Shown here piece by piece: positions 1 through 12,120 of a stretch of DNA of 64,000 nt. Source of the DNA: a virus. Both the position numbers and the translations under genes were made by a program. The stretch lies in IMG/VR virus record IMGVR_UViG_3300034112_001564, positions 1-64,000 of that record, one strand, 5' to 3'. Position 1 is the first letter of the stretch; each line of letters starts with the position of its first letter. The notes beneath the pieces were generated by a model. The model searched no databases and was not told where the DNA came from. It was given only the letters and a program-made list of their open reading frames with translations.

Positions 1-59
1 ACGATGCTAACTGTCCGAATAATCAAACGGCCGCGAAAACCGCAAAAAATATTTTAGGC

Positions 60-87
60 TTGACCGAATTGCGGACGATGCTATCCT
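60..87 (+). promoter_or_regulatory. Sigma-70-like promoter, first copy
   Basis: A TTGACC hexamer (60-65) and TATCCT (82-87) are separated by 16 bp. The surrounding TTTTAGGC, CGGACGATGC and downstream ATGC words recur at 2488-2532, so this is a near-duplicate of a second promoter. It lies about 50 bp upstream of the first gene and should drive the plus-strand left arm. Confidence 0.7.
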
Positions 88-139
88 TCATGCGTCGGGG
101 CATCCCCCCGAAACCATCACTAGATGAAAGGCTCGATCC

Positions 140-412
140 ATGCGAATCGCTCATAAGACTCCCGAATGCACGATCATTGTGGAAGGCGACGATATCCCCG
201 CTCACGTCGAATGGACGACGCACGACGTGATTGATCGCGCAACGGGGCACGTCGTCGGAACCATCGAATGTGTCTGGGAGGATTATGTTCTCGCCGGCAT
301 GCGTCGACTCGGCAGCGTCTCGGATGGCGTGATGGCGCTCGCCCGCTGGGATTTTTCCGACGCCGCCGACGCCGCCGACGCGCTGTACGAAATTCGCCCG
401 ATGATCGGTTAA
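140..412 (+). CDS. Hypothetical small acidic protein (90 aa)
   Basis: The 90-residue product begins MRIAHKTPEC, is acidic in its second half and has no motif I recognise. The ATG follows a GAAAGG purine stretch by about 8 bases and sits 50 bp below the promoter at 60-87, making this the first gene of the plus-strand early arm. There is no signal peptide or membrane segment. Function unknown; it is probably an early small protein like its downstream neighbours. Confidence 0.65.
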   Translation: MRIAHKTPECTIIVEGDDIPAHVEWTTHDVIDRATGHVVGTIECVWEDYVLAGMRRLGSVSDGVMALARWDFSDAADAADALYEIRPMIG

Positions 413-474
413 CACTCGACGATTCGCCGTACTGGACGTTTCCCCGCATCCCCCCATTTTTGAAAGAAAACACG

Positions 475-1434
475 ATGAAAACCGCAACCTATCGCCCGAC
501 GATGAAGAATTCCGATTGCCTGCGATTCGCTCGATTCTGCATGGAATGCGGCAGCCTCGCCGACGCTGCCGCTGAGGCTCGACGCATCGCCCGACGCATC
601 CGCGGCAGCAGCAGGAAGCGGGGCACATGGAAGTACTTCCTGCTGCGATTCGCGGCAGCCCTTGAATCCGGCAGCCTGCCGCATTCCATCTTCGCGGAGG
701 AAGGTAACGTCAAACTGCCTTTCGTCGCATTCTCGACGCTGCCGATTGTGACGTGCCCCGGCGCGGGGGCATGCGCAGGCATCGCAGCCCGCGGCGATGC
801 GCCGAACCTCGCCGATGCATTTTGCTACAGCCTGCGAGCATGGCGATACCCTGCCGCATTCCTGCGGCAGGCGATGAACACGCTACTGCTGAGGTTCAAT
901 CGTCGTGCCATCATCGACGCTTTCAAGGCGCTGCCGGAGGGCGTCACGTTTCGGCTGTATGTCGACGGCGATTTTGATTCCGAATCGACGGCCGTTTTCT
1001 GGTTCAATCTGTTGCGGCAGCGCCCCGATATGGCTTGCTATGGGTATAGCAAGTCGTGGCCGATCATTGAAAAACTCGCCGGCATGGTACCGCCGAATTA
1101 TGCCTTGAATCTGTCGTCGGGAGGCATCGACGACGACGACGCCGAATTCCGCGATAGACTCCGCGCGCTGCCTTTCGTTCGCGGCGATTTCATCGCGCTC
1201 CCCGTCGTCGGCGAGTTTGCCAAGGGCTTCGCTCGATACGATGACGCCGAATATCATCGCGCCGTCCGAAAGGCTGCCGAGGATGCGGGGCTCGGCAAAG
1301 TCTTCTCATGCCCCGGCACTTGCGGCAGTTGCACGGGCGCGGGGCACGCTTGCGGGGCTCGCGACGACGCGGGGGATTTCATCATGCCCCGCATCGTCGC
1401 CATCGGCATTCATGCGCCCGGTTATCTGTCCTGA
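475..1434 (+). CDS. Gp88-like cysteine-rich phage protein
   Basis: The 319-aa protein starts at the ATG at 475; the frame is open further upstream but overlaps the preceding gene, so the internal ATG is preferred. Two Cys-containing patches stand out: CPGAGAC followed by FCYSLRAWRYP near residues 90-125, and CPGTCGSC with HACG near the C terminus. Between them lies FRLYVDGDFDS and WFNLLRQRPD. From memory this pattern matches the Gp88 family of mycobacteriophages, whose function is unknown; the cysteines could bind a metal or an iron-sulphur cluster. A 14-bp perfect hairpin follows the stop. Family assignment is from recall only. Confidence 0.65.
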   Translation: MKTATYRPTMKNSDCLRFARFCMECGSLADAAAEARRIARRIRGSSRKRGTWKYFLLRFAAALESGSLPHSIFAEEGNVKLPFVAFSTLPIVTCPGAGACAGIAARGDAPNLADAFCYSLRAWRYPAAFLRQAMNTLLLRFNRRAIIDAFKALPEGVTFRLYVDGDFDSESTAVFWFNLLRQRPDMACYGYSKSWPIIEKLAGMVPPNYALNLSSGGIDDDDAEFRDRLRALPFVRGDFIALPVVGEFAKGFARYDDAEYHRAVRKAAEDAGLGKVFSCPGTCGSCTGAGHACGARDDAGDFIMPRIVAIGIHAPGYLS

Positions 1435-1453
1435 GCCTGCCGCGCATCGACGA

Positions 1454-1491
1454 CACGAGCCCCGCGGGATTCAAGCCCCGCGGGGCTCGTG
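1454..1491 (+). terminator. Strong GC hairpin after the Gp88-like gene
   Basis: A perfect 14-bp inverted repeat (arms 1454-1467 and 1478-1491, CACGAGCCCCGCGG and its complement) encloses a 10-base loop, 20 bases after the stop at 1434. No U-run follows, so it may be a pause or processing hairpin rather than a classical intrinsic terminator. Confidence 0.6.
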
Positions 1492-1496
1492 CATGC

Positions 1497-1938
1497 GCAG
1501 GGCTCAGGCTCGATCATGACGGGGGCTCAGGCTCGGCAGGCAGGCGACGGCAGGGGCTCAGGCATCGCAGGCAGGCGACGACGGCGGGGGCTCAGGCTCG
1601 GCAGGCGACGACGGCAGGGGCTCAGGCATCGCAGGCAGGCGACGACGGCAGGGGCTCAGGCTCGGCAGGCAGGCGACGGCAGGGGCTCAGGCATCGCAGG
1701 CAGGCGACGACGGCAGGGGCTCAGGCATCGCAGGCAGGCGACGACGGCAGGGGCTCAGGCTCGGCAGGCGACGACGGCAGGGGCTCAGGCATCGCAGGCA
1801 GGCGACGGCAGGGGCTCAGGCTCGGCAGGCAGGCGACGGCAGGGGCTCAGGCATCGCAGGCAGGCGACGACGGCAGGGGCTCAGGCATCGCAGGCAGGCG
1901 ACGACGGCAGGGGCTCAGGCATCGGCAGGCAGGCCGGC
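1497..1938. repeat. Tandem repeat, about 12 units of 30-34 bp
   Basis: Units each begin GGGGCTCAGGC and continue with CATCGCAGGC or TCGGCAGGC, then GGCGACGACGGCA or a 3-bp-shorter GGCGACGGCA. About 12 complete units of 30, 31 or 34 bp run head to tail with a partial unit at each end. There are no unique spacers, so this is not CRISPR. Units differ by loss of GAC or GCAG, typical of slippage. All frames through it give low-complexity peptides, so it is treated as non-coding. Confidence 0.85.
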
Positions 1939-1952
1939 GCACTCGACGCCCC

Positions 1953-2113
1953 CCCCGAACGTGAGAACACGAGCCGCCCCGACCGGCGAAACGAGCCGCC
2001 CCCGAACGTGGAAACCAGCGCAGCCCCGAACGTGGAAACGCGCGCCGCCCCGACCGGCGAAACGCGACGCCCCCGATCATGCGAACCCGAGCCGAGCCCC
2101 CGAACATGGGAAC
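1953..2113 (+). repeat. Tandem array of seven start-associated elements
   Basis: Seven copies of a 16-18 bp element lie at about 1953-1968, 1977-1994, 2000-2015, 2024-2039, 2048-2064, 2071-2086 and 2098-2113. The forms are CCCCGACCGGCGAAACGA and CCCCGAACGTGGAAAC. The same element precedes many start codons between 2.8 and 8.8 kb, always in this orientation. Here the copies are arrayed without genes between them. Confidence 0.8.
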
Positions 2114-2123
2114 CGGCGAGCCG

Positions 2124-2372
2124 CTACGAACCGCGCCGGCGGCTCCGGTCGGCCGCCCTGGCATCCGCGGCGGCCTCCGCGATTTCGCGGAGCTGCTCGA
2201 CCCCGTACATATCAAGCACGAGCGACCAGTCCTCGCCGGCTCGCAGCCCCTGGCCGTGAGCGTGCCGCCAAACGACGGCAGCGATTTCTTCAGAGTAGGC
2301 CGGATCGGCGCCGGCCGCCGCGGCGGCATCGGCAGCCCAATCGAACAGTCTCGCGAGGTTTTCGATTTTCAT
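2124..2372 (-). CDS. Hypothetical alanine-rich protein, reverse strand
   Basis: The 82-aa product starts MKIENLARLF, is Ala-rich and acidic, and has a plausible helical composition with GC-rich third codon positions like neighbouring genes. It runs against an otherwise plus-strand arm and has no strong Shine-Dalgarno sequence before its ATG at 2372. It could be a real antisense-oriented gene or a by-product of high GC. No family is recognised. Confidence 0.45.
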   Translation of the reverse strand: MKIENLARLFDWAADAAAAAGADPAYSEEIAAVVWRHAHGQGLRAGEDWSLVLDMYGVEQLREIAEAAADARAADRSRRRGS

Positions 2373-2495
2373 GCCGGCATCGTATCCAGCGAGCCGCGGG
2401 GGCGCAACCCCGGCCGCGAAAACTCGAAATTTCTCACAATCCCAAGTGTCCAAACAACGCAAACCCGCGGGAATTCCGAGAAAAAGATTTTAGGC

Positions 2496-2523
2496 TTGAC
2501 CGATCGACGGACGATGCTATCCT
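2496..2523 (+). promoter_or_regulatory. Sigma-70-like promoter, second copy
   Basis: TTGACC (2496-2501) and TATCCT (2518-2523) are spaced 16 bp, exactly as at 60-87, and the flanks TTTTAGGC and CGGACGATGC are the same. The spacers differ only in a short central block. It drives the gene at 2571 and the run of small genes after it. Confidence 0.75.
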
Positions 2524-2570
2524 TGTGGCATGCGGGCGAATGAGCCTCCCCAGTGAAATGAGGTGACGAA

Positions 2571-2795
2571 ATGTGCGACGACCAGAAAATCGTGAACGAC
2601 ATGGAAGATGCGATAGAGCGAAACGATCTGCGCGACATGGTGCGACTGCTTCGCGAGTATGACGGGAAGAACCCGATCACGTTTCGCCAGTTCAAAATCG
2701 AATACGGCGACGACTCGACCCGCGCCGAGTGGCGCGAGGCGATTGTCGAAGAGTGCGAGAGTCTGATCGAAGGAATCAAGCACGGCCGGGAATAG
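2571..2795 (+). CDS. Hypothetical small charged protein (74 aa)
   Basis: A 74-aa, highly charged, probably helical protein (MCDDQKIVND at the N terminus) with no recognised family. An AGGTGA ribosome site lies about 6 bases before the ATG, and the second copy of the early promoter ends 48 bp upstream, so this is the first gene of its transcript. Two start-associated elements separate it from the next gene. Confidence 0.75.
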   Translation: MCDDQKIVNDMEDAIERNDLRDMVRLLREYDGKNPITFRQFKIEYGDDSTRAEWREAIVEECESLIEGIKHGRE

Positions 2796-2834
2796 CCCCG
2801 ACCGTGGAAACCCAAACCCCCTAGAAGGAAACGA
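2796..2834 (+). promoter_or_regulatory. Paired start-associated elements
   Basis: CCCCGACCGTGGAAAC (2796-2811) begins at the TAG stop of the preceding gene and is followed by CCCCCTAGAAGGAAACGA (2817-2834), which ends five bases before the ATG at 2839. The second copy contains the AGAAGGA that would serve as the ribosome-binding site. Confidence 0.7.
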
Positions 2835-2838
2835 GACG

Positions 2839-3174
2839 ATGAAGAACCCCGCGACGATCCCCGGCAGCGTCATGGAAGAAATCGAACGGCGTATGGCCCG
2901 CGGCGATGATATGCAAGAAACGCGACGGCACGTCATCAAGCACCACGGCATGAGCGAATGGCGATGGCTCTCGACCACGCCGCACGAGCGACACGCTCGC
3001 GAGAGGGCGCAGGCCGCTCGCTCGATTCTGGAGGTGAGGCAGCTTATCCGCGAAAACGGCTTCAATACCTGGGAGGTCTGCGCCATCGCTCGCGATCCAG
3101 ACGGTTTCGCTTTCTGTGACGGTGGCGGAGCCACCGCGGATGACCTCGGGAGGGAATCCGCCGGCCTTGCGTGA
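2839..3174 (+). CDS. Hypothetical protein (111 aa)
   Basis: The 111-aa product (MKNPATIPGS start) is rich in Arg, Glu and His, with a helical central part. No motif is recognised, and the C-terminal 20 residues are Gly/Ala-rich and may be disordered. Its ATG follows a purine-rich start-associated element. Function unknown; context suggests a small early phage protein. Confidence 0.7.
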   Translation: MKNPATIPGSVMEEIERRMARGDDMQETRRHVIKHHGMSEWRWLSTTPHERHARERAQAARSILEVRQLIRENGFNTWEVCAIARDPDGFAFCDGGGATADDLGRESAGLA

Positions 3175-3196
3175 TAGGCTCCCAGAGCAAACAATC

Positions 3197-3251
3197 GGCC
3201 GCCGGCGCGTTGCCGGTGGCCCCGACCGTGACAACCCCGTAAGAGGAAACC
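3197..3251 (+). promoter_or_regulatory. Intergenic hairpin plus paired start-associated elements
   Basis: A stem GGCCGCCGGC / GCCGGTGGCC (3197-3221, one G-U pair) closes the five-base loop GCGTT. It abuts CCCCGACCGTGACAAC (3220-3235) and CCCCGTAAGAGGAAACC (3235-3251), six bases before the ATG at 3257. The loop resembles those of the hairpins at 5910 and 6206. Confidence 0.65.
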
Positions 3252-3256
3252 AGACG

Positions 3257-3571
3257 ATGAAGGTATACAGCGTCAGCACGAACAAGACATGCGGCGGCCC
3301 GCATCATGGAATCACCGTATCGCTTATCAGCGGGCCTGGGATCGGCGTGCTGCTGCGGCACTTCCCCAGCAGCGAAGCTTCCGCAGCCCGCGCCTACGAG
3401 GCGAGGCTGCAACGAGTGGCGGAGATTCTCAACGAGACAAGCGCGGCGGCGGCCTTGGCGGCAGCCGCTGATGCGCTTGACATGGCGCAGGCGCAGGTCG
3501 ATTGCGAGCGGGATCGGAAGACGCTGATCGCCGCGATGCACGCGGCGCGCCAAGCAGCTCGATCTCTTTAG
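3257..3571 (+). CDS. Hypothetical alanine-rich helical protein (104 aa)
   Basis: The frame is open upstream, but the ATG at 3257 directly follows an AGAGGAAACC element and is chosen as the start. The product begins MKVYSVSTNK, has a short beta-like N-terminal part containing HHGITVSLISG, and a long Ala/Glu/Arg helical region from about residue 38 that could form a coiled coil. No known family. Confidence 0.7.
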   Translation: MKVYSVSTNKTCGGPHHGITVSLISGPGIGVLLRHFPSSEASAARAYEARLQRVAEILNETSAAAALAAAADALDMAQAQVDCERDRKTLIAAMHAARQAARSL

Positions 3572-3607
3572 TCGCCAGACCCCGACCCCGTACATCACAA
3601 CCCATAA

Positions 3608-3623
3608 CCCCGATTAGGAGAAC
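3608..3623 (+). promoter_or_regulatory. Start-associated element with ribosome site
   Basis: CCCCGATTAGGAGAAC lies six bases before the ATG at 3630 and contains AGGAG, so it doubles as the ribosome-binding site. A degenerate upstream partner (CCCCGTACATCACAAC) begins near 3586. The same TTAGGAGAAC form recurs at 5526-5542. Confidence 0.7.
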
Positions 3624-3629
3624 CTGACG

Positions 3630-4634
3630 ATGGCAGCGATTCAAGACTTTGGCGGCAAGATCGGCGGAGCGGCGAAAGACCGCTCGCCCCCCCGCGGGCC
3701 TCGATCGACCCCGACCGGCGAAACGGCGGGCGCTTCCGGCAGGCAGGCCAAGCCGCTCCGGTTCGCATGGTACATAGACCGCAAGACCGGCGCGGTCTAT
3801 GCCGTGAAAGATGGAGACCGCGCCCATCGTCGCCTGCGGGAGTTCCCAAACGGCGAGGCTGCCCGCGCATTTATCGCCAGCCCCGCGGCGCAGTCCGAAC
3901 TGGAGGCCGCCTGGGAGGTCGCCCGCGAGGCAGGCAACGTGACCGAAGAGAAGACACGCGGCACGTTCAACCGCCCTCGCAGCGGCCTCGATCACCGCGG
4001 CGGCGTCGATTCGACGCCGGAGTCTTTCCTCGCCACGTTCGCCCCCTACGGCGTGGAGTTCGGCAATTGGCAGACCGATAGGGCGGCCTGCCTCAACCAG
4101 ACGCACGATGCGCTGTGCGACCTCGCAGGGGTCGTGCGGATGCAGGCCGGATCGCTCACGTTCGGCGGGAGGCTCTCCCTCGCATTCGGATCACGCGGCC
4201 ACGGCAAGGCGTCCGCACACTACGAGCCGGAACGGCGGGTTATTAATCTGACCAAGACCTCCGGCGCGGGCTGCCTCGCGCACGAGTGGTTCCACGCCTA
4301 CGATCACCAGCAGGGGGACGCTGCCGGCCTGGGGGGCTTTGCCTCAGCCGGCCGCAGCGATTTGTGGCTGACGCTGCAAGCCCTGCCAGCGGGGCTTAAA
4401 GACCGCAGCCTCGCAGCCGACCGGACCCGCAGCAAGCGCTACTGGTCGCTGCCCGAGGAGATTCTGGCGCGGGCGTTTGAAGCTTGGGTGAGGCAGTCGG
4501 TGGACAACGACTACCTCGCGAACATCCTGCCGGTGGAGCAGTTCGGCCCCGGCGCGTCTGTCTACCCTTACCCGCTGCCTGCCGAGATGCCCGCAGTGGG
4601 CGTGGCGTTCCGCCGGCTTTTCGGCTTGCCCTGA
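3630..4634 (+). CDS. LPD1-domain polyvalent-type protein with HExxH motif
   Basis: The 334-aa protein carries GVEFGNWQTDR (residues 141-151), GGRLSLAFG (179-187), HYEPERRVINLTKT (197-210) and an HEWFH zincin signature (His218, Glu219, His222) followed by AYDH. This order matches the large polyvalent protein-associated domain 1 (LPD1) of phage and conjugative-element proteins, which are thought to act on arriving in or taking over the host. The first 110 residues are a separate, probably flexible region. A start-associated element lies inside this gene at 3719-3735 and is translated. A metal-dependent protease activity is inferred, not shown. Confidence 0.85.
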   Translation: MAAIQDFGGKIGGAAKDRSPPRGPRSTPTGETAGASGRQAKPLRFAWYIDRKTGAVYAVKDGDRAHRRLREFPNGEAARAFIASPAAQSELEAAWEVAREAGNVTEEKTRGTFNRPRSGLDHRGGVDSTPESFLATFAPYGVEFGNWQTDRAACLNQTHDALCDLAGVVRMQAGSLTFGGRLSLAFGSRGHGKASAHYEPERRVINLTKTSGAGCLAHEWFHAYDHQQGDAAGLGGFASAGRSDLWLTLQALPAGLKDRSLAADRTRSKRYWSLPEEILARAFEAWVRQSVDNDYLANILPVEQFGPGASVYPYPLPAEMPAVGVAFRRLFGLP

Positions 4635-4635
4635 C

Positions 4636-4676
4636 CCCCGTGGATGGAAACGAGAGCACCCCGAAGGAGGGAACGA
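4636..4676 (+). promoter_or_regulatory. Paired start-associated elements
   Basis: CCCCGTGGATGGAAACGA (4636-4653) starts just after the LPD1 gene's stop. CCCCGAAGGAGGGAACGA (4659-4676) contains GGAGG and ends three bases before the ATG at 4680. The first copy lacks a good ribosome site and the second has one, as in the other pairs. Confidence 0.7.
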
Positions 4677-4679
4677 GAG

Positions 4680-4946
4680 ATGAGCGACCCCGAGATGTAC
4701 GCACGACTGCGGATCGCGATGGAGCGGATCGATGCCGCGACTAATGGCCGCGAATGGTTGGCTGGTCGGCACATTCGCCGCGTGATGGATGCGATGGCGC
4801 AGAAGTTTTTCGACAGCACGGGCGGCGACCTGCGATGGCAGGCGACAACTATCCCATCGCCCGCGGAGACGTTCGGCGACAAGACTGCAAGTCAGGACTA
4901 TGCCCCCTGGAGCGAAACGATTACCCCGACCGGAGAAACGACATGA
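4680..4946 (+). CDS. Hypothetical protein (88 aa)
   Basis: The 88-aa product starts MSDPEMYARL; an upstream in-frame ATG at 4644 would add 12 residues encoded by the start-associated element and is not preferred. The protein is helical in its first half, with aromatic residues later, and has no recognised motif. Its stop overlaps the next start by four bases (ATGA at 4943-4946), so the two are translationally coupled. Confidence 0.65.
   Translation: MSDPEMYARLRIAMERIDAATNGREWLAGRHIRRVMDAMAQKFFDSTGGDLRWQATTIPSPAETFGDKTASQDYAPWSETITPTGETT
4924..4941 (+). promoter_or_regulatory. Start-associated element inside a coding end
   Basis: CCCCGACCGGAGAAACGA overlaps the last codons of the preceding gene (encoding TPTGETT) and ends one base before the ATG at 4943. 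It contains GGAG and shows that the element is kept even when it must be translated. Confidence 0.65.
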
Positions 4947-5125
4947 ATCCGATGCTGCCTTGGTGGAGCTGTTCCGCGATGATCCTCGACGGTGCCGACG
5001 AGATCGACGCCGACCTCGAAGTGCGGGCCGCGACGGCCGGCGAGGCCGAGGATATCGCCCGAGCCGAGTGGGCCGATATGGGCCTGGGTGCCGATGCGGT
5101 GAAGGTGCGGAGGTGCGACCAGTGA
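4943..5125 (+). CDS. Hypothetical acidic protein (60 aa)
   Basis: A 60-aa acidic protein beginning MNPMLPWWSC and containing LEVRAATAGEAEDIA, a pattern seen in many small phage proteins in which a short beta-strand is followed by an acidic helix. It overlaps the upstream gene by ATGA and the downstream GTG start by three bases. No function is recognised. Confidence 0.6.
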   Translation: MNPMLPWWSCSAMILDGADEIDADLEVRAATAGEAEDIARAEWADMGLGADAVKVRRCDQ

Positions 5126-5448
5126 CAAGCTATCAAGTCTCTCCGCGTGTCACGCTCCACCCTGGCGATCGATTCCGCGTGAGCGGCGGCCCCTACTACC
5201 GACTCGAAGACGGCAGCCGGGTGCCGCTAGCGGCTCGCGGCGTGTTCACGCTCGTGGCAGTGGATCGCGGGCGGCGTGGCAGGGTGCAGCTCCTCGCCTA
5301 CGGGGCCGGCGGTTTCGCGGTGCTCCACGTTGCCGGCCGGCGGCGGTCGCGGGTGCCGGGGCTCGTCTGCCGCCCCTATCGGGTGCGCCGGGCTGGCGGG
5401 CAGAAAACAATTCGGCCGGCGCGCAAGAAGCAGTTGCCCGCGGCGTAA
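5122..5448 (+). CDS. Hypothetical basic beta-rich protein (108 aa), GTG start
   Basis: The GTG at 5122 overlaps the previous stop and has GGAGGTG about 8 bases upstream, so it is chosen over upstream in-frame codons. The product is strongly basic, with repeated short beta-strand patterns (FRVSGGPYYRL, GRVQLLAYG) and an Arg/Lys-rich C terminus, suggestive of a small nucleic-acid-binding or SH3-like barrel. No family is assigned. Confidence 0.6.
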   Translation: MTSYQVSPRVTLHPGDRFRVSGGPYYRLEDGSRVPLAARGVFTLVAVDRGRRGRVQLLAYGAGGFAVLHVAGRRRSRVPGLVCRPYRVRRAGGQKTIRPARKKQLPAA

Positions 5449-5461
5449 TCATTGCGTAGGA

Positions 5462-5489
5462 TTGACCTACCAAAGGACGAGACTAGAAG
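5462..5489 (+). promoter_or_regulatory. Sigma-70-like promoter
   Basis: TTGACC (5462-5467) and TAGAAG (5484-5489) are spaced 16 bp in a 100-base intergenic stretch. The -35 and spacing equal those of the promoters at 60 and 2496, while the -10 is weaker. It would restart transcription for the gene at 5548. Confidence 0.55.
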
Positions 5490-5500
5490 GGGCAGCGTAG

Positions 5501-5542
5501 CCCCGGCCGGCGAAACGAGACGATACCCCGATTAGGAGAACG
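5501..5542 (+). promoter_or_regulatory. Paired start-associated elements
   Basis: CCCCGGCCGGCGAAACGA (5501-5518) is followed by CCCCGATTAGGAGAACG (5526-5542), five bases before the ATG at 5548. This is the clearest example of a non-ribosome-binding copy followed by an AGGAG-bearing copy. Confidence 0.7.
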
Positions 5543-5547
5543 CGACG

Positions 5548-5907
5548 ATGAGCCGAATGAAGGATGCGATCATTGCATGCTGGGATGCGGACGCGATCCC
5601 AGTCCCTGGTGGCACTGTGAAGAAGTGGCGGGCGGCGGGCCATGCGGCCCCGACAATCCGCGTGCCGGTGACTGGCTACGACGGGCAGACGATCATGCTC
5701 CGCGCCATGCGGCACCGGGATGCCAGCGCGATGGCTATTCGGTTGGAGGGGTCGAGCGACGGTCGCCGGCTGTGCCGCGAGCTGGCTGCCCTGCGGAAGT
5801 ATCGGTACATGACTTTGCCATGCCGATGCGGTGCCTGCGGTGTTCGCGGGCAGCAGCATTACTTCGTGAATACCGGGGCGGAATTGCTCTGCGTGAATTG
5901 CGGCTGA
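5548..5907 (+). CDS. Zinc-ribbon hypothetical protein (119 aa)
   Basis: The 119-aa protein has a C-terminal cysteine set CRCGACG and LCVNCG separated by about 20 residues, which looks like a zinc ribbon. The N-terminal part is helical and basic. The start is fixed by AGGAG in the adjacent element. Such small zinc-ribbon proteins often bind nucleic acid or a host protein; that is inference. A 10-bp hairpin follows the stop immediately. Confidence 0.7.
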   Translation: MSRMKDAIIACWDADAIPVPGGTVKKWRAAGHAAPTIRVPVTGYDGQTIMLRAMRHRDASAMAIRLEGSSDGRRLCRELAALRKYRYMTLPCRCGACGVRGQQHYFVNTGAELLCVNCG

Positions 5908-5909
5908 TT

Positions 5910-5934
5910 CCCCGCCGGCACGTTGCCGGCGGGG
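5910..5934 (+). terminator. Perfect 10-bp hairpin, ACGTT loop
   Basis: CCCCGCCGGC and its complement enclose ACGTT, three bases after the preceding stop. An almost identical hairpin follows the next gene at 6205-6228. There is no U-run. It may be an intergenic processing or termination element. Confidence 0.65.
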
Positions 5935-5966
5935 AGTGGGCAGGCACAAGGTGAAGGAGAGATGCG

Positions 5967-6197
5967 ATGGTCAATCAGTTTCCAGAAGCGGGGCAGTCCC
6001 GCGGGCGGTTCATCACCTGGGCAAGAGAAATCACCGAGGAGGCATTTCGCCTTGACCCGATTTTTATGGACGAGGCCGCCGTGAGGATTTTCGGCGGCTC
6101 CGTCTGGTGCTGGACGGGATCCGAAACGACGGACGCGAAGATTCACGCGATCTGCCGAGCGGCGATGATCGTGCGGTTGCAGGCCGGAGCGGCCTGA
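5967..6197 (+). CDS. Hypothetical protein (76 aa)
   Basis: A 76-aa protein starting MVNQFPEAGQ with an AAGGAGAG ribosome site about 7 bases upstream. It contains a Phe/Trp-rich central patch (FGGSVWCWTG) and two cysteines. It is bracketed on both sides by near-identical 10-bp hairpins, as if it were an insertable cassette. No family is recognised. Confidence 0.65.
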   Translation: MVNQFPEAGQSRGRFITWAREITEEAFRLDPIFMDEAAVRIFGGSVWCWTGSETTDAKIHAICRAAMIVRLQAGAA

Positions 6198-6204
6198 CGG
6201 GATT

Positions 6205-6228
6205 CCCCGCCGGCACGTTGCCGGCGGG
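6205..6228 (+). terminator. Hairpin, second copy (ACGTT loop)
   Basis: GATTCCCCGCCGGC, the ACGTT loop and GCCGGCGGG repeat the sequence at 5907-5932, including the flanking GATT. The stem is 9 bp (6206-6228). It lies seven bases after the stop at 6197. Confidence 0.65.
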
Positions 6229-6253
6229 CGTGGAAACGACGAAACTACGATGA

Positions 6254-6287
6254 CCCCCAGACGGGGGAAACGACACGAAAGGGAAAC
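6254..6287 (+). promoter_or_regulatory. Start-associated elements with internal hairpin
   Basis: CCCCCAGACGGGGGAAACGA (6254-6273) can fold on itself (CCCCC/GGGGG), and a degenerate copy, AAAGGGAAACGA, runs to the ATG at 6289. The second part supplies the purine-rich ribosome site. Confidence 0.55.
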
Positions 6288-6288
6288 G

Positions 6289-6576
6289 ATGGCGACCGAG
6301 CACATTTATGACTACCAGACAACGCTTGACGGCAAGCCCGAGAAGGTGACATTCACCATCGTGCGAGATACCGCGGCAGAGAAAGCAGCCGGCCGGCACC
6401 TGTGGCCGATCACGGCGACCGTTGGAGAGAAGTCGCTCCGATACGTTGTCGCGGCAGGGACAAGGCTTAGAGAGTCTCGCAGCGTCTTGCCAGACTTGGC
6501 CCGCGACGGGTTTATCACGCGGGAACGCGAGATTGAACCATTTGGCGGATTCGGCAGCTATGACCCAACGACATGA
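6289..6576 (+). CDS. Hypothetical protein (95 aa)
   Basis: The ATG at 6289 (MATEHIYDYQ) follows AAAGGGAAACG and is preferred to an ATG at 6250, whose first codons fall in the repeat element. The protein shows alternating strand-like segments (KVTFTIVRD, LRYVVAAGT) and a glycine-rich end, suggesting a small beta fold. No family is recognised. Confidence 0.65.
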   Translation: MATEHIYDYQTTLDGKPEKVTFTIVRDTAAEKAAGRHLWPITATVGEKSLRYVVAAGTRLRESRSVLPDLARDGFITREREIEPFGGFGSYDPTT

Positions 6577-6590
6577 CGACCCACCGCTAC

Positions 6591-6684
6591 CCCCGGCCGG
6601 CGAAACGCTCGCCGGGGACTGCGGCGGGCCGGCGTGGCCCCTGGAACGTGGAAACGCGACGGCCCTGGAGGGCCGCCGCAGACC
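6591..6684 (+). promoter_or_regulatory. Three degenerate start-associated elements in a 135-base gap
   Basis: The gap between stop 6576 and start 6712 contains CCCCGGCCGGCGAAACG (6591-6607), CCCCTGGAACGTGGAAACG (from about 6638) and a GACCGGAAAC remnant near 6675. A GGCCC/GGGCC hairpin sits between the last two. No gene is evident here; the frames that cross it translate the repeats. Confidence 0.55.
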
Positions 6685-6711
6685 GGAAACCTAGAGACGA
6701 GGAGACAGACG

Positions 6712-6951
6712 ATGACATACACGAAGTGCCAAATTCTGAATCACGAGGTCGAGTTCAAGTCGATTCCGACCAGCGGCTGCATCTCGGTCGGCGTGGATGG
6801 CTGGCTTGTCGGCAACTACGAAAACGATTCGGCGGCGATCGTGGCGGCACTGGAGCAAATCCGCGTGATGGACGGACTAGTGAAGCGGCCACTCATTTCC
6901 AATCGTATTCGCAAAAACCTGCGAGAGATGGTCGCTGCGAACGCATCTTGA
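6712..6951 (+). CDS. Hypothetical protein (79 aa)
   Basis: A GAGGAG ribosome site precedes the ATG at 6712; an in-frame ATG at 6634 would translate the repeat elements and is rejected. The 79-aa product (MTYTKCQILN) has an N-terminal strand-rich half with VGVDGWLVGNY and a C-terminal helix. No family is assigned. Confidence 0.65.
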   Translation: MTYTKCQILNHEVEFKSIPTSGCISVGVDGWLVGNYENDSAAIVAALEQIRVMDGLVKRPLISNRIRKNLREMVAANAS

Positions 6952-6992
6952 GCCCCGCCCCGTGGAAACTTTGACCCGATTACACCATGCCG

Positions 6993-7010
6993 CCCCGTGC
7001 GGCGAAACGA
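6993..7010 (+). promoter_or_regulatory. Start-associated element
   Basis: CCCCGTGCGGCGAAACGA lies about 8 bases before the tandem ATGs at 7019 and 7022. A shorter partner, CCCCGTGGAAAC, precedes it near 6957. Confidence 0.65.
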
Positions 7011-7018
7011 GCACGATC

Positions 7019-7375
7019 ATGATGGGCATCAACATCAACGACCGCACCCAGGACTTCACCGCTCAGATTCTGCGCGGCGAGAAGACGGTCGAAACCCGCC
7101 GCACCGACTCGCTCCGCCCCTATGTGGGAAAGCGGGTCGGCATCGTCCGCACCGGCCGGGGGCGGGCGACACTGGTCGGCTACGCGACCATTGGCGAGCC
7201 GATTCGCTACGAGCACCAGCGGCAGTTTGCAGCCGACTACGCTCGCCACCGAGTGGCGGCGGGCTCTCCGCACGACTGCGGCCCCGAGGGCAAATTTGGC
7301 TACGTCCTGATCGACGTTGAGGCGACGCCCCCCAGGCCGGTGACGAGCCGCGGGATCGTGGCGAGGAAGATTTAG
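7019..7375 (+). CDS. ASCH-domain protein (118 aa)
   Basis: The protein contains the ASCH/PUA-like signature ILRGEKTVETRR (about residues 17-28), then LRPYVGKRVGIVRTG and LVGYATIGE. This order of strand, charged loop and strand is typical of ASCH domains, which bind RNA or modified nucleotides and are common in phages. Two adjacent ATGs (7019, 7022) are equally likely starts. Its role here is not known; processing of transcripts or modified bases is possible. Confidence 0.8.
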   Translation: MMGININDRTQDFTAQILRGEKTVETRRTDSLRPYVGKRVGIVRTGRGRATLVGYATIGEPIRYEHQRQFAADYARHRVAAGSPHDCGPEGKFGYVLIDVEATPPRPVTSRGIVARKI

Positions 7376-7400
7376 GCACAGTGCTCGAGGGCCGCCGCCA

Positions 7401-7433
7401 CCCCGAGCATAGAAACCCCGAGCGGCGAAACGA
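7401..7433 (+). promoter_or_regulatory. Paired start-associated elements
   Basis: CCCCGAGCATAGAAAC (7401-7416) shares its last C with CCCCGAGCGGCGAAACGA (7416-7433). An AAAGGA follows before the ATG at 7446. Confidence 0.7.
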
Positions 7434-7445
7434 AAGGACGATGCG

Positions 7446-7829
7446 ATGACGAAGGAAGGATTCAAGATCGACAAGAAGAAGCGAATGTCGAAGAAGGCCG
7501 TCTGCGCCTACTTCGGTGAACGCGGGATGCCCGTGTCCCCCGCGGAGGTGGCCTTCCATGCGGTCGGCACGTTCACCAGCAGGAAGTGGGATCACGAGCA
7601 CGGCGGTCGCTTCACCGACGAGCTGGAGACCATCCCCGCCCTGGCCGTGATCATCAAGGAACGGCCGGCTGGCATCTGCGACTGGGGCGACACCGACGAG
7701 GGCCGCATGGATGTCTACTCGCTCAGAGACATTTATGGAGAGTGCCAGGACGATGTCCCCGCCCCGAAGTACGCTATCGCCGCGGCGAAGCGGGCAATAC
7801 GGCCCGCGAAACGAAAGGCAGCCCGATGA
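7446..7829 (+). CDS. Hypothetical protein (127 aa)
   Basis: The N terminus is lysine-rich (KIDKKKRMSKK), followed by an aromatic acidic body containing ICDWGDTDEGRMDVY and a basic C-terminal tail. No catalytic motif is seen. It overlaps the next start by ATGA (7826-7829). Charge distribution suggests a nucleic-acid or protein-binding role, which is inference. Confidence 0.7.
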   Translation: MTKEGFKIDKKKRMSKKAVCAYFGERGMPVSPAEVAFHAVGTFTSRKWDHEHGGRFTDELETIPALAVIIKERPAGICDWGDTDEGRMDVYSLRDIYGECQDDVPAPKYAIAAAKRAIRPAKRKAAR

Positions 7830-8014
7830 TCTCATACGAACCGATCCCCGCGGAGATTCGGCGCGAGCTTTTTCAGGTCATGTTCGACCGCATCAAGATG
7901 CACTACGAGCTGCGGCAACGCATCCGCAGGAGCGCCGGCCTCCCCGCCGGCAACATGGTCACTGGAGCGTTCCGGCGGCCCGTCCGAGGAAACAAGAGGA
8001 GACCCCGATCATGA
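7826..8014 (+). CDS. Hypothetical basic protein (62 aa)
   Basis: A 62-aa basic protein starting MISYEPIPAE, coupled by ATGA to the genes on both sides. A copy of the GCCGGC hairpin arm falls within its 3' half (about 7938-7956), which encodes SAGLPAGN. No family is recognised. Confidence 0.6.
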   Translation: MISYEPIPAEIRRELFQVMFDRIKMHYELRQRIRRSAGLPAGNMVTGAFRRPVRGNKRRPRS

Positions 8015-8190
8015 AAAACCGAATCACCCCCTACGAGGCCGGTTGGCTGACGTTCTTGGTCAGCAGCGGCATCGCCTCCGAGGCGGCCTGCCGCGAGGCG
8101 ATGAACCGCGTGGCCCAGGACGCCCTCGACGAGATCAACCGCCTGCGGGCGGCCAGGAAGAAGGCTGGCAAAAAACGCAAGGACAATTAG
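8011..8190 (+). CDS. Hypothetical small helical protein (59 aa)
   Basis: The product MKNRITPYEA... is helical with a Lys/Arg-rich tail (ARKKAGKKRK). AGAGGAGACC precedes the ATG, and the start overlaps the previous stop by ATGA. No function is recognised. Confidence 0.6.
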   Translation: MKNRITPYEAGWLTFLVSSGIASEAACREAMNRVAQDALDEINRLRAARKKAGKKRKDN

Positions 8191-8218
8191 GCTACTGGTC
8201 GATAGTTCAATAGGCTAC
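8188..8218 (+). promoter_or_regulatory. Direct repeat TAGGCTAC in an intergenic gap
   Basis: TAGGCTAC occurs at 8188-8195 and 8211-8218, 23 bp apart, in the 55-base gap before the gene at 8246. The AGGCTACTG word also occurs in the gap upstream of the SNF2-like gene (about 32076). This could be an operator; evidence is limited to the repeat itself. Confidence 0.3.
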
Positions 8219-8245
8219 GAAACGACACTTCACAGGAGACTCCCC

Positions 8246-8557
8246 ATGAGTCACGCAGTAGGCGATTCGGTCTGGTTGGCGACTTCCCATGTCGGATTTG
8301 ACGGCCTCTCCCGCGGCCATGTCCTGCGGGTCGAGGTTGTCGCCGTCATCGACGGCACCGTGATGATCCGCTACCCGTCCAGCGGAACGATCCGCTCGGT
8401 CGAGGCCGCGTCGGAGACGATCTGTGACAGCGAGGCCGAGGCATGGGCCGCCGTGGCCCGCGAGCTGACCACGGCCCGAGGCCGCGTCCAGGCGGCGATC
8501 GACGAGGCCACCGCCAAAGCCGCCGGCTGCCGGGTCGGGGAGGCGGTGCCGGCATGA
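8246..8557 (+). CDS. Hypothetical protein (103 aa)
   Basis: A 103-aa protein with an N-terminal strand-rich half (VLRVEVVAVIDGTVMIRYPS), similar in feel to small KOW or SH3-like barrels, then a long Ala/Glu helix. AGGAGA precedes the ATG by about 8 bases. Its stop overlaps the next ATG by four bases. No family can be named. Confidence 0.7.
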   Translation: MSHAVGDSVWLATSHVGFDGLSRGHVLRVEVVAVIDGTVMIRYPSSGTIRSVEAASETICDSEAEAWAAVARELTTARGRVQAAIDEATAKAAGCRVGEAVPA

Positions 8558-8700
8558 ACCCCCGATCGTGGAAATGGGTCATGGACGACCTGATCCGCAC
8601 GCTCGTGCTCGTCCGACTCGGGCAATTGCTCGGGTCGGAGAGCACGGCGGCGCGGGCCGTCCACGACCTCGTCGAAGCCGTTTTTTCGATTGTCAGGTGA
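8554..8700 (+). CDS. Hypothetical small protein (48 aa)
   Basis: A 48-aa product (MNPRSWKWVM) coupled by ATGA to the upstream gene. It contains one amphipathic helix, LIRTLVLVRLGQLL, that might associate with membrane. The 5' codons overlap a degenerate start-associated element. Confidence 0.5.
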   Translation: MNPRSWKWVMDDLIRTLVLVRLGQLLGSESTAARAVHDLVEAVFSIVR

Positions 8701-8719
8701 TTGGCCTGACGCATAGAAT
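8690..8719 (+). promoter_or_regulatory. Sigma-70-like promoter
   Basis: TTGTCA (8690-8695) and TAGAAT (8714-8719) are spaced 18 bp. Both hexamers are close to consensus. It overlaps the end of the preceding gene and lies 36 bp before the HTH gene at 8756. Confidence 0.6.
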
Positions 8720-8729
8720 GACACCCCTA

Positions 8730-8746
8730 CCCGAGTGTGGAAACGA
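8730..8746 (+). promoter_or_regulatory. Start-associated element
   Basis: CCCGAGTGTGGAAACGA is followed by GAGGACACG and the ATG at 8756. It is the last copy before a gene in the plus-strand arm. Confidence 0.6.
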
Positions 8747-8755
8747 GAGGACACG

Positions 8756-9046
8756 ATGAAACCCATCGACCCCAGCGACTACCTGACCATCCAACAGGCA
8801 ATGGACGCTCTCGGCTGCCCCAGGCGGACGCTTGCCAGGGCGATCCTGCGGGCCGAGACGGCCGGCAAGAAGATCGTCACCGAGATTCTCGGCAAGAGCG
8901 TGATCCACAAGTCGAAGATCGCCGTGCTCAAGGAGTTCTACTACCCATACGGCTCGCCGGCCCACCAGAAGATGGTGAAGAAGTGGGGCTCCGCCGGGGG
9001 CACACAGAAAAGGATCAATCGCGAAGAGGCGGAGCAGGGGCGGTAG
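8756..9046 (+). CDS. Helix-turn-helix DNA-binding protein (96 aa)
   Basis: Residues 8-32 (LTIQQAMDALGCPRRTLARAI) form an excisionase/MerR-type helix-turn-helix, followed by a wing-like KIVTEILGKSVIHKSKIAVL. The 96-aa length fits an excisionase or small regulator. It has its own promoter at 8690 and is the last plus-strand gene, convergent with the HNH gene. It could direct integrase excision or control the left arm, but it sits far from the integrase, so regulation is the likelier role. Confidence 0.75.
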   Translation: MKPIDPSDYLTIQQAMDALGCPRRTLARAILRAETAGKKIVTEILGKSVIHKSKIAVLKEFYYPYGSPAHQKMVKKWGSAGGTQKRINREEAEQGR

Positions 9047-9059
9047 TTAAAGCCTGCCT

Positions 9060-9350
9060 TTAACTTGAGTCGCGGGCCGTGCGCTTACTATGGCATGCCT
9101 TGTGTAAAAGCCGGAGGTTACTGAGGCTATCAGTACCACCTTTGGCCTTCTCGACGATGTGGTCGATGTCGCCGCTTTCGCCGACGATCAGCATCCCGCA
9201 CAACTGGCAGATGCCCTGGTCGCGGGCGATGACGGCAAGGCGGGTGCGTCTCCAGGCGGCCGAGCAGTAGCCGCGGGCCGCCGCCGTCGGGCGGGCCTCC
9301 CCCCGTGGGGCGAAACGAGCCGGCCTATACGTCGGGATTCTTTTCGGCAC
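9060..9350 (-). CDS. HNH endonuclease (96 aa), GTG start
   Basis: The protein has the compact HNH order: CQLCG, then DIDHIVEKAKGGTDSLSNLRLLH and CHSK, so a zinc-stabilised beta-beta-alpha metal nuclease is likely. The GTG at 9350 has GGAG 7 bases upstream. Small HNH proteins in phages often sit next to terminase or packaging genes; here the neighbour is a membrane protein at the far end of the minus-strand operon. Part of its N-terminal coding sequence coincides with a plus-strand copy of the start-associated element (9301-9318). Confidence 0.85.
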   Translation of the reverse strand: MPKRIPTYRPARFAPRGEARPTAAARGYCSAAWRRTRLAVIARDQGICQLCGMLIVGESGDIDHIVEKAKGGTDSLSNLRLLHKACHSKRTARDSS

Positions 9351-9666
9351 GAGCCTGCTCCTGCCACCCGTACATCAGAACCTTGTGCGCGTGGTTCTTC
9401 TTCCACCACGCGATGATCGCCTTGACGATCAGTTGAGCCAGCACGCTGATCAAGATCGCGGCGATCACTGAGCCGTACTTGTCCCTGGCGCGGATGCGGA
9501 GGCGGGCGGCGAGCACCTCCTCCATGCGGTCAGGCGGCGCGTCGATTGGGAACTCCTCGACCGCCCATTCGACGAGCTGATCGCGGAGGGCGGGATGCGT
9601 CGAGAGACGGATGCCACCGGCTCGCGAGACATACCGCTTTAACGTGTCGTACTTGGCGTCGGGCAT
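9325..9666 (-). CDS. Single-span membrane protein (113 aa)
   Basis: The ATG at 9666 follows AAGGACGG. A soluble N-terminal half is followed by a hydrophobic segment (VIAAILISVLAQLIVKAIIAW, about residues 66-86) and a basic tail (WWKKNH). One transmembrane span with a charged C terminus could suit a holin-like or accessory membrane role, but no family is recognised. It overlaps the lipoprotein gene before it and the HNH gene after it. Confidence 0.6.
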   Translation of the reverse strand: MPDAKYDTLKRYVSRAGGIRLSTHPALRDQLVEWAVEEFPIDAPPDRMEEVLAARLRIRARDKYGSVIAAILISVLAQLIVKAIIAWWKKNHAHKVLMYGWQEQARAEKNPDV

Positions 9667-9929
9667 TTGCCGTCCTTGCATGGTGCGGGGGCGGCGGAGG
9701 TCGCTGCCTTTCCAGTGCCTTTACAGACAGGGCACTCAGATCGCACGCGGCCGTCAGACAAATACCCGAGGCCGCGGCAATTGCTGCAAACGCCAGACGG
9801 AGCAGGAGCCGGCTTGGCCTGGGCCATCAGCGAGTACCTGCCGGCCACCGCGACGAACGGCCGGAGGTCTTCGGCGGCATGCGTGCAGCCGCAGAGAGAC
9901 AGCAGGAGGACGATCAAGAGCTTAGACAT
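9639..9929 (-). CDS. Lipoprotein with two CXXCXGXG motifs (96 aa)
   Basis: The ATG at 9929 gives MSKLLIVLLL followed by a lipobox ending LCGC, so a lipid-modified Cys near residue 14-16 is expected. The body contains CSNCRGLGYL and CPVCKGTGK, two CXXCXGXG motifs of the DnaJ zinc-finger type. The combination of an outer-membrane-type lipoprotein and a DnaJ-like zinc pair is unusual. Its start overlaps the stop of the intein-bearing protease gene. It could be an o-spanin-like partner in lysis; that is context inference. Confidence 0.7.
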   Translation of the reverse strand: MSKLLIVLLLSLCGCTHAAEDLRPFVAVAGRYSLMAQAKPAPAPSGVCSNCRGLGYLSDGRVRSECPVCKGTGKAATSAAPAPCKDGKCPTPSTTR

Positions 9930-12120
9930 TGCCTTCGGCTCCGTAGGTCGTGTGCTTGCGGCGAGGCCAGCCAGCCACGCTCGAGAGAGCAATGCACTGG
10001 CATCGGTCAAGGTTGTCGGCGAGTGCCCAGAAGCATCCCTCTGGAATCAGGAGATCGGTGCCGAGCACCTTGCGGCTCCCTGAGTTCCATTTCGCCCAGG
10101 AGTTGACGACCAACACGAGCCCCTGCCCGTACTTCCTGTGCGTCTCCGGCCGATCGTCAAATCCTGCGAGCCCCATCGAGTGGTGCCACACCCCAATTTG
10201 ACGACTTACGCCATCCTCATTTCTGGTTCGATCGAAGCCTAAAGAACTACATACGAAGCAGCCGAAACCGGCCGCGAGGAAGTCCCTGATCTGCTCCCTG
10301 CCCTTGAGGAACGTCGCCGTCCTCGCGACGTACTGCTTGCTCTCGCGCAGCCAGTTCTCGCCGGGGGGCGTCGCGCCGCCGAGACGAATCGTCTTCTCGG
10401 TGTAGTGCGTCAGGTCGATCTTCAGATCGGGGTACGGCTTGCGAATGAGGAAGCCCTTCTCGCAGGCAACCTTCGCGGCTTCAGAACACACCCAGCCGTC
10501 CCCGGCAAAATTTCTCCACGCAAAAAGTGATTCGCTGGCGATCACTGACTCGCGGATGCCGGCCTCTGGAAGTTCAGGAGCGCCCTCAAGCCTGCCGGTC
10601 ACCTCGTCGGGCTTGTTGTCGTAGATTTCCGCGCTCAAACTGCCAAGCAAGGCACGCGAACACCCCCATCCGACGCAGTTGTGGACAGCGTATCCGTTCG
10701 CGATGAATGAGTGATCCTCCTCGACCTCGAGACAATACACATCGCCCTCAAACGCTTCGCGGGTCGTCTCGGCAACCTTCTTCCACATGCCCCACTTGCC
10801 GGCCTTTTTCCCAGTAGATACGCCAAGCCCCCGCTCGGTCTTTGCGGCCGGAAAAGCCGCGATGGCATTGTCGCCGAAAAGATGAAGCACGTCCGCCGAC
10901 TTCGACTGCTTATAGGCAGGCCGCGTGCTGACGGAGGCGACGGCCCCGCACGAGTTCGCGATGTCAAACATGTCGCGGACAAGACCGCTGGATACAGAGA
11001 CAGCACACGCCGAGAACACGTTGCTTTTCGCTGGCTTGCCTGTCTTGAACGCGAACGCCCCCTTCGCCACCTGCTTGAGATTGCCGTCGCCTGCAAACCA
11101 ACCACGAAGCAGCCCAAGACGGACAGACTTTTTCGCCGTCAGAAAAACTCGGTTGACCCGTTTTGTGTATGTGTTGCCTGGGGCAAGCTTCTTGAACAGC
11201 CATGCCACGGGGCCGCAGTTGAAGCGAACGTAGACGACAGACGGCTTTGAGGGGACTCTGACAATCCTTGCGTCAAGGCCAAATATGTCATTTATGAACT
11301 GAACCGCTGTCTCCGCGAGAAACGCTTCATGGGAGCCCAGGTTAAACGTGATCCGCGAGGGTCCGTACTTTCCATAGTCGCACGAACCCTCGGCAAGAAA
11401 GAGGCCGATCAGCCACGCGAGCCTGAAGTCCAGCGGGGCATACCTGTTGATTTCTTTTTTACCGTGAAGCCAACGAAGTCGATGTTCAGCCGTCGGCTTC
11501 ACGTTCCGCGGGTCGGCCTGCCCGAATGCAATCGCCCGCGGCGCTTCTGCGAGATCGAAGACGATCTCGTCACCGATTTCCGCGTGCCGCGGGATGAGGA
11601 CATCCGTACCTTTCGTGATGAGTTCGGATTGGCACCAGAACGGATTGTCGTCGTTTCCACAGACAAAACGGTGGTCTGGAGTAGAGCGGACGCTCCTCGG
11701 CACTCCGCGGGCTCGCAGTTTCACAAGGTCGCCCTTGTACGGCTTCTTGAGTGTATTGAGCACCCTTCGGACGTTGCCGTTGTGGGTGACAACGCTCTCG
11801 CCCACCGCGACCGCCTCGATCGGCTTCTCGGTCCCGTCTGCCATGCGTACAGTCGTGCCGGCCGGAAAGCAGTCGCCCCATAATTGCGACGGCCCCGGCA
11901 GCGAGCCTGGAAACACGGCCTCGATGGTTCGCCAGAGCGTCGACAGCCTGCCGGCCCCGGCCTGCTCAAGCCCCCAGTCGTAGGCGACGTTCGCGCCGTT
12001 CGGATCGCCGCCGTACCGCAGCACATAATCGGCGAACACCTCGTCGGCCCGCGGGTCTTTGCGGCAGCCGATGAACCCCTTCGCGTATTTCTCGACGGGG
12101 TCGAAGTCACTCATTGCCAT
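9922..12120 (-). CDS. Papain-like (C1) cysteine protease interrupted by an intein
   Basis: The 732-aa precursor consists of a 334-aa host protein split by a 398-aa intein. In the spliced protein, WGDCVGWGCSRA, HHSMGLAG and VVNSWAKWN supply the Cys, His and Asn expected of a papain-type (C1A) peptidase. The Cys in GDC is both the likely nucleophile and the first residue after the intein. No signal peptide is seen. Neighbours are three small membrane proteins and a lipoprotein, so a role in lysis or host modification is possible. It could alternatively be an inactive papain fold. I recall similar non-secreted C1-like proteins in Planctomycetes, but this was not searched. Confidence 0.85.
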   Translation of the reverse strand: MAMSDFDPVEKYAKGFIGCRKDPRADEVFADYVLRYGGDPNGANVAYDWGLEQAGAGRLSTLWRTIEAVFPGSLPGPSQLWGDCFPAGTTVRMADGTEKPIEAVAVGESVVTHNGNVRRVLNTLKKPYKGDLVKLRARGVPRSVRSTPDHRFVCGNDDNPFWCQSELITKGTDVLIPRHAEIGDEIVFDLAEAPRAIAFGQADPRNVKPTAEHRLRWLHGKKEINRYAPLDFRLAWLIGLFLAEGSCDYGKYGPSRITFNLGSHEAFLAETAVQFINDIFGLDARIVRVPSKPSVVYVRFNCGPVAWLFKKLAPGNTYTKRVNRVFLTAKKSVRLGLLRGWFAGDGNLKQVAKGAFAFKTGKPAKSNVFSACAVSVSSGLVRDMFDIANSCGAVASVSTRPAYKQSKSADVLHLFGDNAIAAFPAAKTERGLGVSTGKKAGKWGMWKKVAETTREAFEGDVYCLEVEEDHSFIANGYAVHNCVGWGCSRALLGSLSAEIYDNKPDEVTGRLEGAPELPEAGIRESVIASESLFAWRNFAGDGWVCSEAAKVACEKGFLIRKPYPDLKIDLTHYTEKTIRLGGATPPGENWLRESKQYVARTATFLKGREQIRDFLAAGFGCFVCSSLGFDRTRNEDGVSRQIGVWHHSMGLAGFDDRPETHRKYGQGLVLVVNSWAKWNSGSRKVLGTDLLIPEGCFWALADNLDRCQCIALSSVAGWPRRKHTTYGAEGNV
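10678..11871 (-). other. Intein with LAGLIDADG homing endonuclease (398 aa)
   Basis: The segment begins at Cys (CFPAGTTVRMADG, splicing block A) and has STPDHRF (block B, TxxH). It contains two LAGLIDADG-type motifs (LIGLFLAEGS near residue 154 and LLRGWFAGDGN near 254), and ends DVYCLEVEEDHSF then YAVHN (blocks F and G), with Cys as the next host residue. All residues needed for class 1 splicing are present: Cys1, block-B His, penultimate His, terminal Asn and +1 Cys. The reading frame is unbroken, so splicing and homing look intact. Confidence 0.95.

Follow-up and report, generated by a model that had tools for sequence, protein, structure and literature searches.

The analysed window comprises positions 1-64,000 of a viral record of 72,419 bases in IMG/VR (IMGVR_UViG_3300034112_001564). 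Its left end is an arm of small plus-strand genes in which a short asymmetric repeat, CCCCGA-N5-GAAAC, recurs ahead of genes, around a promoter and occasionally within coding sequence. Scanning with this template on both strands at 0, ≤1 and ≤2 mismatches reveals 9, 20 and 34 copies on the plus strand of positions 1-9400, and 0, 1 and 2 on the minus strand. Dinucleotide shuffles of the same region yield means of 0.015, 0.2 and 2.8 copies, with maxima of 1, 2 and 8. The remainder of the record (9401-72419) holds no copy at ≤1 mismatch on either strand. An initial annotation of this DNA had reported about 20 copies in a single orientation, restricted to the left arm, and the scan bears this out. 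The limits it had set, 1953-8746, do enclose members of the family, but the copies run on to 9301 and 9366.

The arrangement of the copies (Table 1) also agrees with that first description, including seven tandem copies at 1953-2113, pairs of copies 5′ of ATG codons and copies tolerated inside genes. Seven pairs were located at gene starts, the second copy usually bearing the Shine-Dalgarno (SD) sequence. The copies inside open reading frames (ORFs) are those at 3709 and 4924, the latter also standing directly before the start at 4943. On the other hand, the starts at 140, 2571, 5122, 5967, 7826, 8246 and 8554 have no copy, at ≤2 mismatches, ending within 75 nucleotides (nt) of them.

Table 1. 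Repeat copies and associated features in the left arm of the window (paired numbers are the first positions of the two copies).
Feature	Position	Strand	Remarks
Tandem array of seven distal-type copies (1953, 1977, 2000, 2024, 2048, 2071, 2098)	1953..2113	+	Spacings 24, 23, 24, 24, 23, 27
Single copy	2408..2423	+	23 nt before the conserved promoter box
Conserved box TTCTCACAATCCCAAGTGTCCA	2431..2452	+	Early promoter region; box pattern matched in 15 arms
Sigma70-like early promoter TTGACC-N16-TATCCT	2496..2523	+	Conserved in relatives; a similar one at 60-87
Copy pair 2796/2817	2796..2832	+	Spacing 21; SD in second; start at 2839
Copy pair 3220/3235	3220..3250	+	Spacing 15; SD in second; start at 3257
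Copy pair 3586/3608	3586..3623	+	Spacing 22; first with 3 mismatches, second with AGGAG; start at 3630
Copy within LPD5/LPD1-domain gene 3630-4634	3709..3724	+	
Copy pair 4636/4659	4636..4674	+	Spacing 23; AGGAGG in second; start at 4680
Copy pair 4903/4924	4903..4939	+	Spacing 21; start at 4943
Copy pair 5501/5526	5501..5541	+	Spacing 25; AGGAG in second; start at 5548
Single copy	6256..6271	+	17 nt ahead of start 6289; weaker copy at 6222
Copies 6591 and 6640	6591..6655	+	Spacing 49; upstream of start 6712
Single copy	6993..7008	+	Ahead of start 7019/7022
Copy pair 7401/7416	7401..7431	+	Spacing 15; ahead of start 7446
Copies 7978 and 8003	7978..8018	+	Spacing 25; first 17 nt before start 8011, second overlapping it
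Single copy	8560..8575	+	Just inside the beginning of small gene 8554-8700
Single copy	8729..8744	+	Ends 11 nt before the ATG of the winged helix-turn-helix gene
96-amino-acid winged helix-turn-helix protein (MerR/BldC/Xis-like)	8756..9046	+	Candidate binder
Rightmost copy at ≤1 mismatch	9301..9316	+	Beyond the winged helix-turn-helix gene; weaker copy at 9366

The family extends well beyond this record. Relatives were gathered with the UvrD helicase of the window, which retrieved 55 related viral contigs, and a scan for paired motifs gave 35 stretches, mostly from contigs that carry the family. A set of 34 related arms contains 1005 copies at ≤2 mismatches and 657 at ≤1, confined to one strand bar a handful, and the reversed-sequence control returned a single copy at ≤1 mismatch in the 35 stretches. 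Start-proximal copies precede 116 different gene families, 70 of them singletons, and therefore the motif is not carried along by one gene. A wider scan of contigs recovered mostly loci with few copies or with identical cores, and only two of them, L203 and L204, carried the family. As a separate observation, a contig of Acetobacterium tundrae (L207) has 10 copies at ≤1 and 20 at ≤2 mismatches on one strand over 8 kb, with several cores; these may be coding repeats or a CRISPR array. One member contig was binned with a metagenome-assembled genome (MAG) of Planctomycetaceae, weak evidence that the hosts of these uncultured phages are probably planctomycetes. A host-encoded origin of the repeats was considered and rejected, since in the planctomycete MAGs searched, apart from the phage contigs binned there, the copies do not clearly favour one strand. 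Searches of Rfam and for tRNAs gave no matches, and an annotated phage collection gave no match at the DNA level.

Copies differ systematically according to their position. The consensus of distal copies is CCCCGANCGTGGAAAC, and the chief difference of start-proximal copies is that the T at position 10 becomes A or G, yielding GAGGA or GGAG. An SD-like core is present in 56% of start-proximal copies, in 11% of first-of-pair copies and in 6% of the others, and SD-type copies end 5-6 nt ahead of the ATG. Across all arms an ATG lies 3-8 nt 3′ of 17.1% of the copies versus 5.3% of random positions (p=2e-41), which establishes the association with gene starts that the initial annotation had proposed. 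Copies within ORFs occupy all three reading frames. No covariation indicative of a hairpin was detected within 604 non-redundant copies. A stem 5′ of first copies was likewise discarded: its stability does not exceed that of random windows (57% versus 65% more stable than shuffles), and the CCCC runs are paired in just 58% versus 46%. The motif does not behave as an extracytoplasmic function (ECF)-like -35 element either, as the logos show no downstream element at a fixed distance. CRISPR arrays or solitary repeats do not fit a variable core, spacings of 15-51 nt and copies dispersed before many genes.

Copies are also tied to promoters. In 15 arms a box, TTCTCAC-N-CCAAnTGTCC, is followed by a TTGAC...TAtnCT promoter, and copies stand 23 nt (21-25) 5′ of the box in nine arms and 27-28 nt 3′ of it in eight. 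These flanking copies lie upstream of the promoter, because its -35 element is found only 52-85 nt 3′ of the box. The box itself is possibly the site of another regulator. A GC-rich minisatellite (1522-1934; unit of about 34 nt, 12.7 copies) directly adjoins the 5′ side of the tandem array, and relatives such as G001 carry other short tandem repeats ahead of the promoter box or of arrays. Sigma70-like promoters are also found at the pairs, within 110 nt 5′ of 42 of 158 first-of-pair copies and 3′ of only 1 of 158, with 3.9% in random windows. In the window, a weak promoter-like match begins 67 nt 5′ of the first copy of the 5501/5526 pair. Many pairs would thus probably sit just 3′ of a transcription start.

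Further information comes from a sister clade whose UvrD is 46-49% identical. Its contigs lack the motif of the window and have instead CCCGTNCGTGGCAAA-like copies on one strand, in arrays of 4-7 copies with a 17/19-nt period located 5′ of a TGGCACG-N4-TTGCA (sigma54-like) promoter. Additional copies occur in genes, and one or two lie inside a gene with two helix-turn-helix (HTH) domains, where paired copies are in different reading frames. These copies show no general association with gene starts, and the SD-fused start copies are therefore regarded as a specialisation of the clade of the window. The feature common to both clades is the presence of copies at promoters and at a putative regulator gene. 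While the idea of a phage-specific, start-associated family stands, that of a system devoted purely to translation starts is not supported, given the copies upstream of the early promoter and the promoter arrays of the sister clade.

The pairs ahead of gene starts obey an unusual rule. Their spacing, taken as the start-to-start distance between the two copies, is odd in 156 of 162 cases (156:6), and in 70 of 76 downstream gene families every spacing is odd (p=6e-15; 106:6 for distinct combinations of family and spacing). The values include 15, 21, 23, 25, 29, 31 and so on up to 51, irrespective of the gap sequence, inside individual gene families as well as across phages, and gene families with several spacings mostly shift by even steps (15, 21, 23, 25). 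In contigs added afterwards the ratio was 24:1, including one new contig with 11 of 11, although this hold-out contains L270, whose spacings repeat those of an arm already used; a first hold-out consisted mostly of arrays and was hence uninformative. In the window, the 3586/3608 pair is an exception with an even spacing, and it was left out of the counts as its first copy has 3 mismatches. Promoter arrays have mixed odd and even spacings and the distances from copy to ATG show no parity, so that neither a general indel bias nor the helical phase of DNA explains the rule. Tentatively, and with considerable doubt, whatever reads the pair may have a two-nucleotide register, which to our knowledge would be an undescribed regulatory grammar.

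The parity rule bears on two explanations that do not rely on a DNA-bound regulator. In one of them, the motif would be recognised within mRNA leaders by an RNA-binding protein or an RNA. The first copy would serve for nucleation or standby and the second would cover the SD, so that many genes would be turned on or off together at the level of translation. Such control is possible, though considerably less probable than the reading favoured below. It would account for the SD held in register inside start-proximal copies, the peak of start distances at 5-6 nt, the strict orientation, the position of pairs in probable 5′ untranslated regions and an odd spacing that pairs have and promoter arrays lack. 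It could also call on a conserved basic all-beta protein (5122-5448), found in 24 of 34 arms. However, the copies that precede the early promoter by fixed offsets fall outside its transcript, the promoter arrays of the sister clade come with no general start association and no conserved RNA structure was found. Of the 16 copy-bearing contigs, 7 lack the all-beta (beta-barrel) protein, which was rejected as a universal binder. Alternatively, the repeats might be recombination linkers, homologous cassettes of promoter and ribosome-binding site that spread by enabling the shuffling of small early genes and need no dedicated binder. This is unlikely: the same motif does stand, in changing combinations, ahead of 116 or more unrelated gene families, but passive homology would not constrain both ends of a 16-nt motif around a variable core. 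Nor would it lead one to expect odd spacings kept within a gene family despite unrelated gaps, or fixed promoter offsets.

The search for a bound protein, suggested along with the initial annotation, yielded a candidate whose binding remains putative. The winged HTH (wHTH) protein of 96 amino acids encoded at 8756-9046 is present in 28 of 34 arms, and its AlphaFold2 (AF2) model (pLDDT 81.5) consists of a winged HTH followed by a long C-terminal helix. In Foldseek searches the best matches are RacA, BldC, Pukovnik Xis, pSK1 Par and RdfS, and the HTH of ParA2 is also matched; BldC and Xis chains have probabilities of 0.80-0.97 and E-values of 0.09-0.2. Model and matches place the protein among small MerR-like wHTH folds. 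Among 40 UvrD-related contigs, a strong match to the protein is found in 13 of 16 that carry copies and in 0 of 24 others (Fisher p=5e-8, a co-occurrence confounded by missing arms). In addition, the sister clade carries a diverged wHTH alongside its diverged motif, and in two arms (G024 and G034) the leading array adjoins a second HTH gene. The BldC/Xis-like protein is probably the likeliest binder of the repeats, and is regarded here as a candidate. The matches to pSK1 Par and to the ParA2 HTH, together with an array of 21-27 nt direct repeats beside a minisatellite where the arm begins, could also suggest replication-origin iterons or a partition centromere, with the array binding an initiator or Par-like wHTH and the dispersed copies being secondary. 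This is very improbable, as the majority of copies lie outside arrays and are tied to gene starts or promoters, and neither ParA nor an initiator was identified in the partial annotation.

The reading that we favour, with a probability of roughly one half, is that the repeats are asymmetric DNA sites for a phage regulator that controls the arm of small genes in an operator- or stoperator-like manner. Where asymmetric sites share an orientation at promoters and between genes, the most usual explanation is a bound regulator, as in the case of cluster A stoperators (PMC9283540), and the copies at fixed promoter offsets, the promoter arrays and the layout of the sister clade all point in this direction, leaving the overlap with ribosome sites as a trait of one clade. 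The SD fusion adds a translational aspect, as in the start-associated sequences (SAS) of cluster K mycobacteriophages (PMC3203893). In the proposed mechanism, a phage-encoded regulator would bind the repeats as double-stranded DNA, head to tail and oriented with transcription. Copies at promoters would serve as operators and those ahead of genes would be stoperator-like, such that promoter firing or elongation would be controlled jointly with ribosome access at the SD-fused sites. This operon-rich block of small, probably early, genes would most likely be switched as a unit.

Several observations weigh against this reading. The SD overlap at gene starts and the strict orientation also fit control at the RNA level, and regulator binding does not predict the rule of odd spacings. 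The link between regulator and repeats is a candidate interaction only: the Foldseek matches rest on probability and TM-score, with weak E-values (best 0.035), a strong wHTH match is lacking in three contigs that carry copies, and most relatives have no copy directly upstream of the wHTH gene. The joint divergence of motif and wHTH is seen between just two clades, and these have diverged in other proteins too. Finally, no repressor or integrase evidence of temperance was found.

Other genes were noted in the window. A GP88-family protein (PF17338) is encoded on the plus strand at 475-1434 (scanned as 268-1434); tblastn detects it in 4 arms only, and the gene is upstream of the array in arms where both are seen. 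The plus-strand LPD5/LPD1 polyvalent-protein-domain gene at 3630-4634 has about 34-36% identity to proteins of Stx phages and of one Pseudoalteromonas phage. On the minus strand lie a 732-amino-acid protein in which Pfam recognises intein splicing and LAGLIDADG-like domains (9922-12120), a QueE-like radical SAM protein (22507-23430; PHROG 2076) that suggests 7-deazaguanine metabolism, and a protein of 2098 amino acids containing some 18 fibronectin type III domains (39277-45573).

Among known systems, the closest in layout are the SAS (consensus GGGATAGGAGCCC) and extended SAS (ESAS) of cluster K mycobacteriophages, the latter with 17-bp imperfect inverted repeats and SigA-like promoters (PMC3203893; PMC11373665). 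This parallel of layout, which the initial annotation drew while noting that the sequence differs, is supported, and the family is conserved in one arm of small genes across many related phages. Both systems consist of a short asymmetric repeat in one orientation, restricted to the non-structural arm, with an upstream second element at which promoters lie; both are kept across different gene families, and the function is putative in both. In start-proximal copies, as in SAS, the repeat contains the SD at 3-8 nt from the ATG, while many other copies are not start-proximal. On the other hand, the consensus CCCCGANCGTGGAAAC does not fit GGGATAGGAGCCC even with up to 2 deviations, and the motif itself recurs as a direct copy in the upstream position, with no 17-bp inverted repeat and no pairing signal above controls. 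Moreover, copies occur here also in promoter arrays, and the host group is another one. Like cluster A stoperators (PMC9283540), the repeats are asymmetric sites in promoters and short intergenic gaps oriented with transcription, but they differ in sequence, are often paired and overlap the SD, and no evidence of lysogeny was found. The cluster A repressor is monomeric and combines an HTH with a stoperator domain (PMC9283540), whereas the candidate described here is a single wHTH of 96 amino acids with one long C-terminal helix and no stoperator domain; a different repressor is also possible. MerR-like proteins of the BldC, Xis and RdfS type share with it the small wHTH fold and asymmetric direct repeats in varying number. 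BldC binds AT-rich direct repeats head to tail with 9 bp per protomer (PMC5859096), while the present sites are 16 nt long, GC-rich and 15-51 nt apart, and their binding is putative. A 26-bp SAS-like repeat with an SD-like core has been described 5′ of 8 gene starts in one arm of Citrobacter phage Mordin (PMC4611695); its sequence and host are unrelated, and the announcement describes no pairs or arrays. Judged by sequence and layout, the family is neither SAS, ESAS nor stoperator, and no paper describing it was found in the open-access literature.

The role of SAS-type repeats in phages has been in question since 2011. The present repeats represent an independent instance in an unrelated phage family, larger by far and more elaborate. 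The promoter-linked layout, the diverged sister clade and the candidate binder make the question accessible to straightforward assays of binding in vitro and of reporter expression, and the odd-spacing rule provides a sharp regularity that any mechanism would have to explain.

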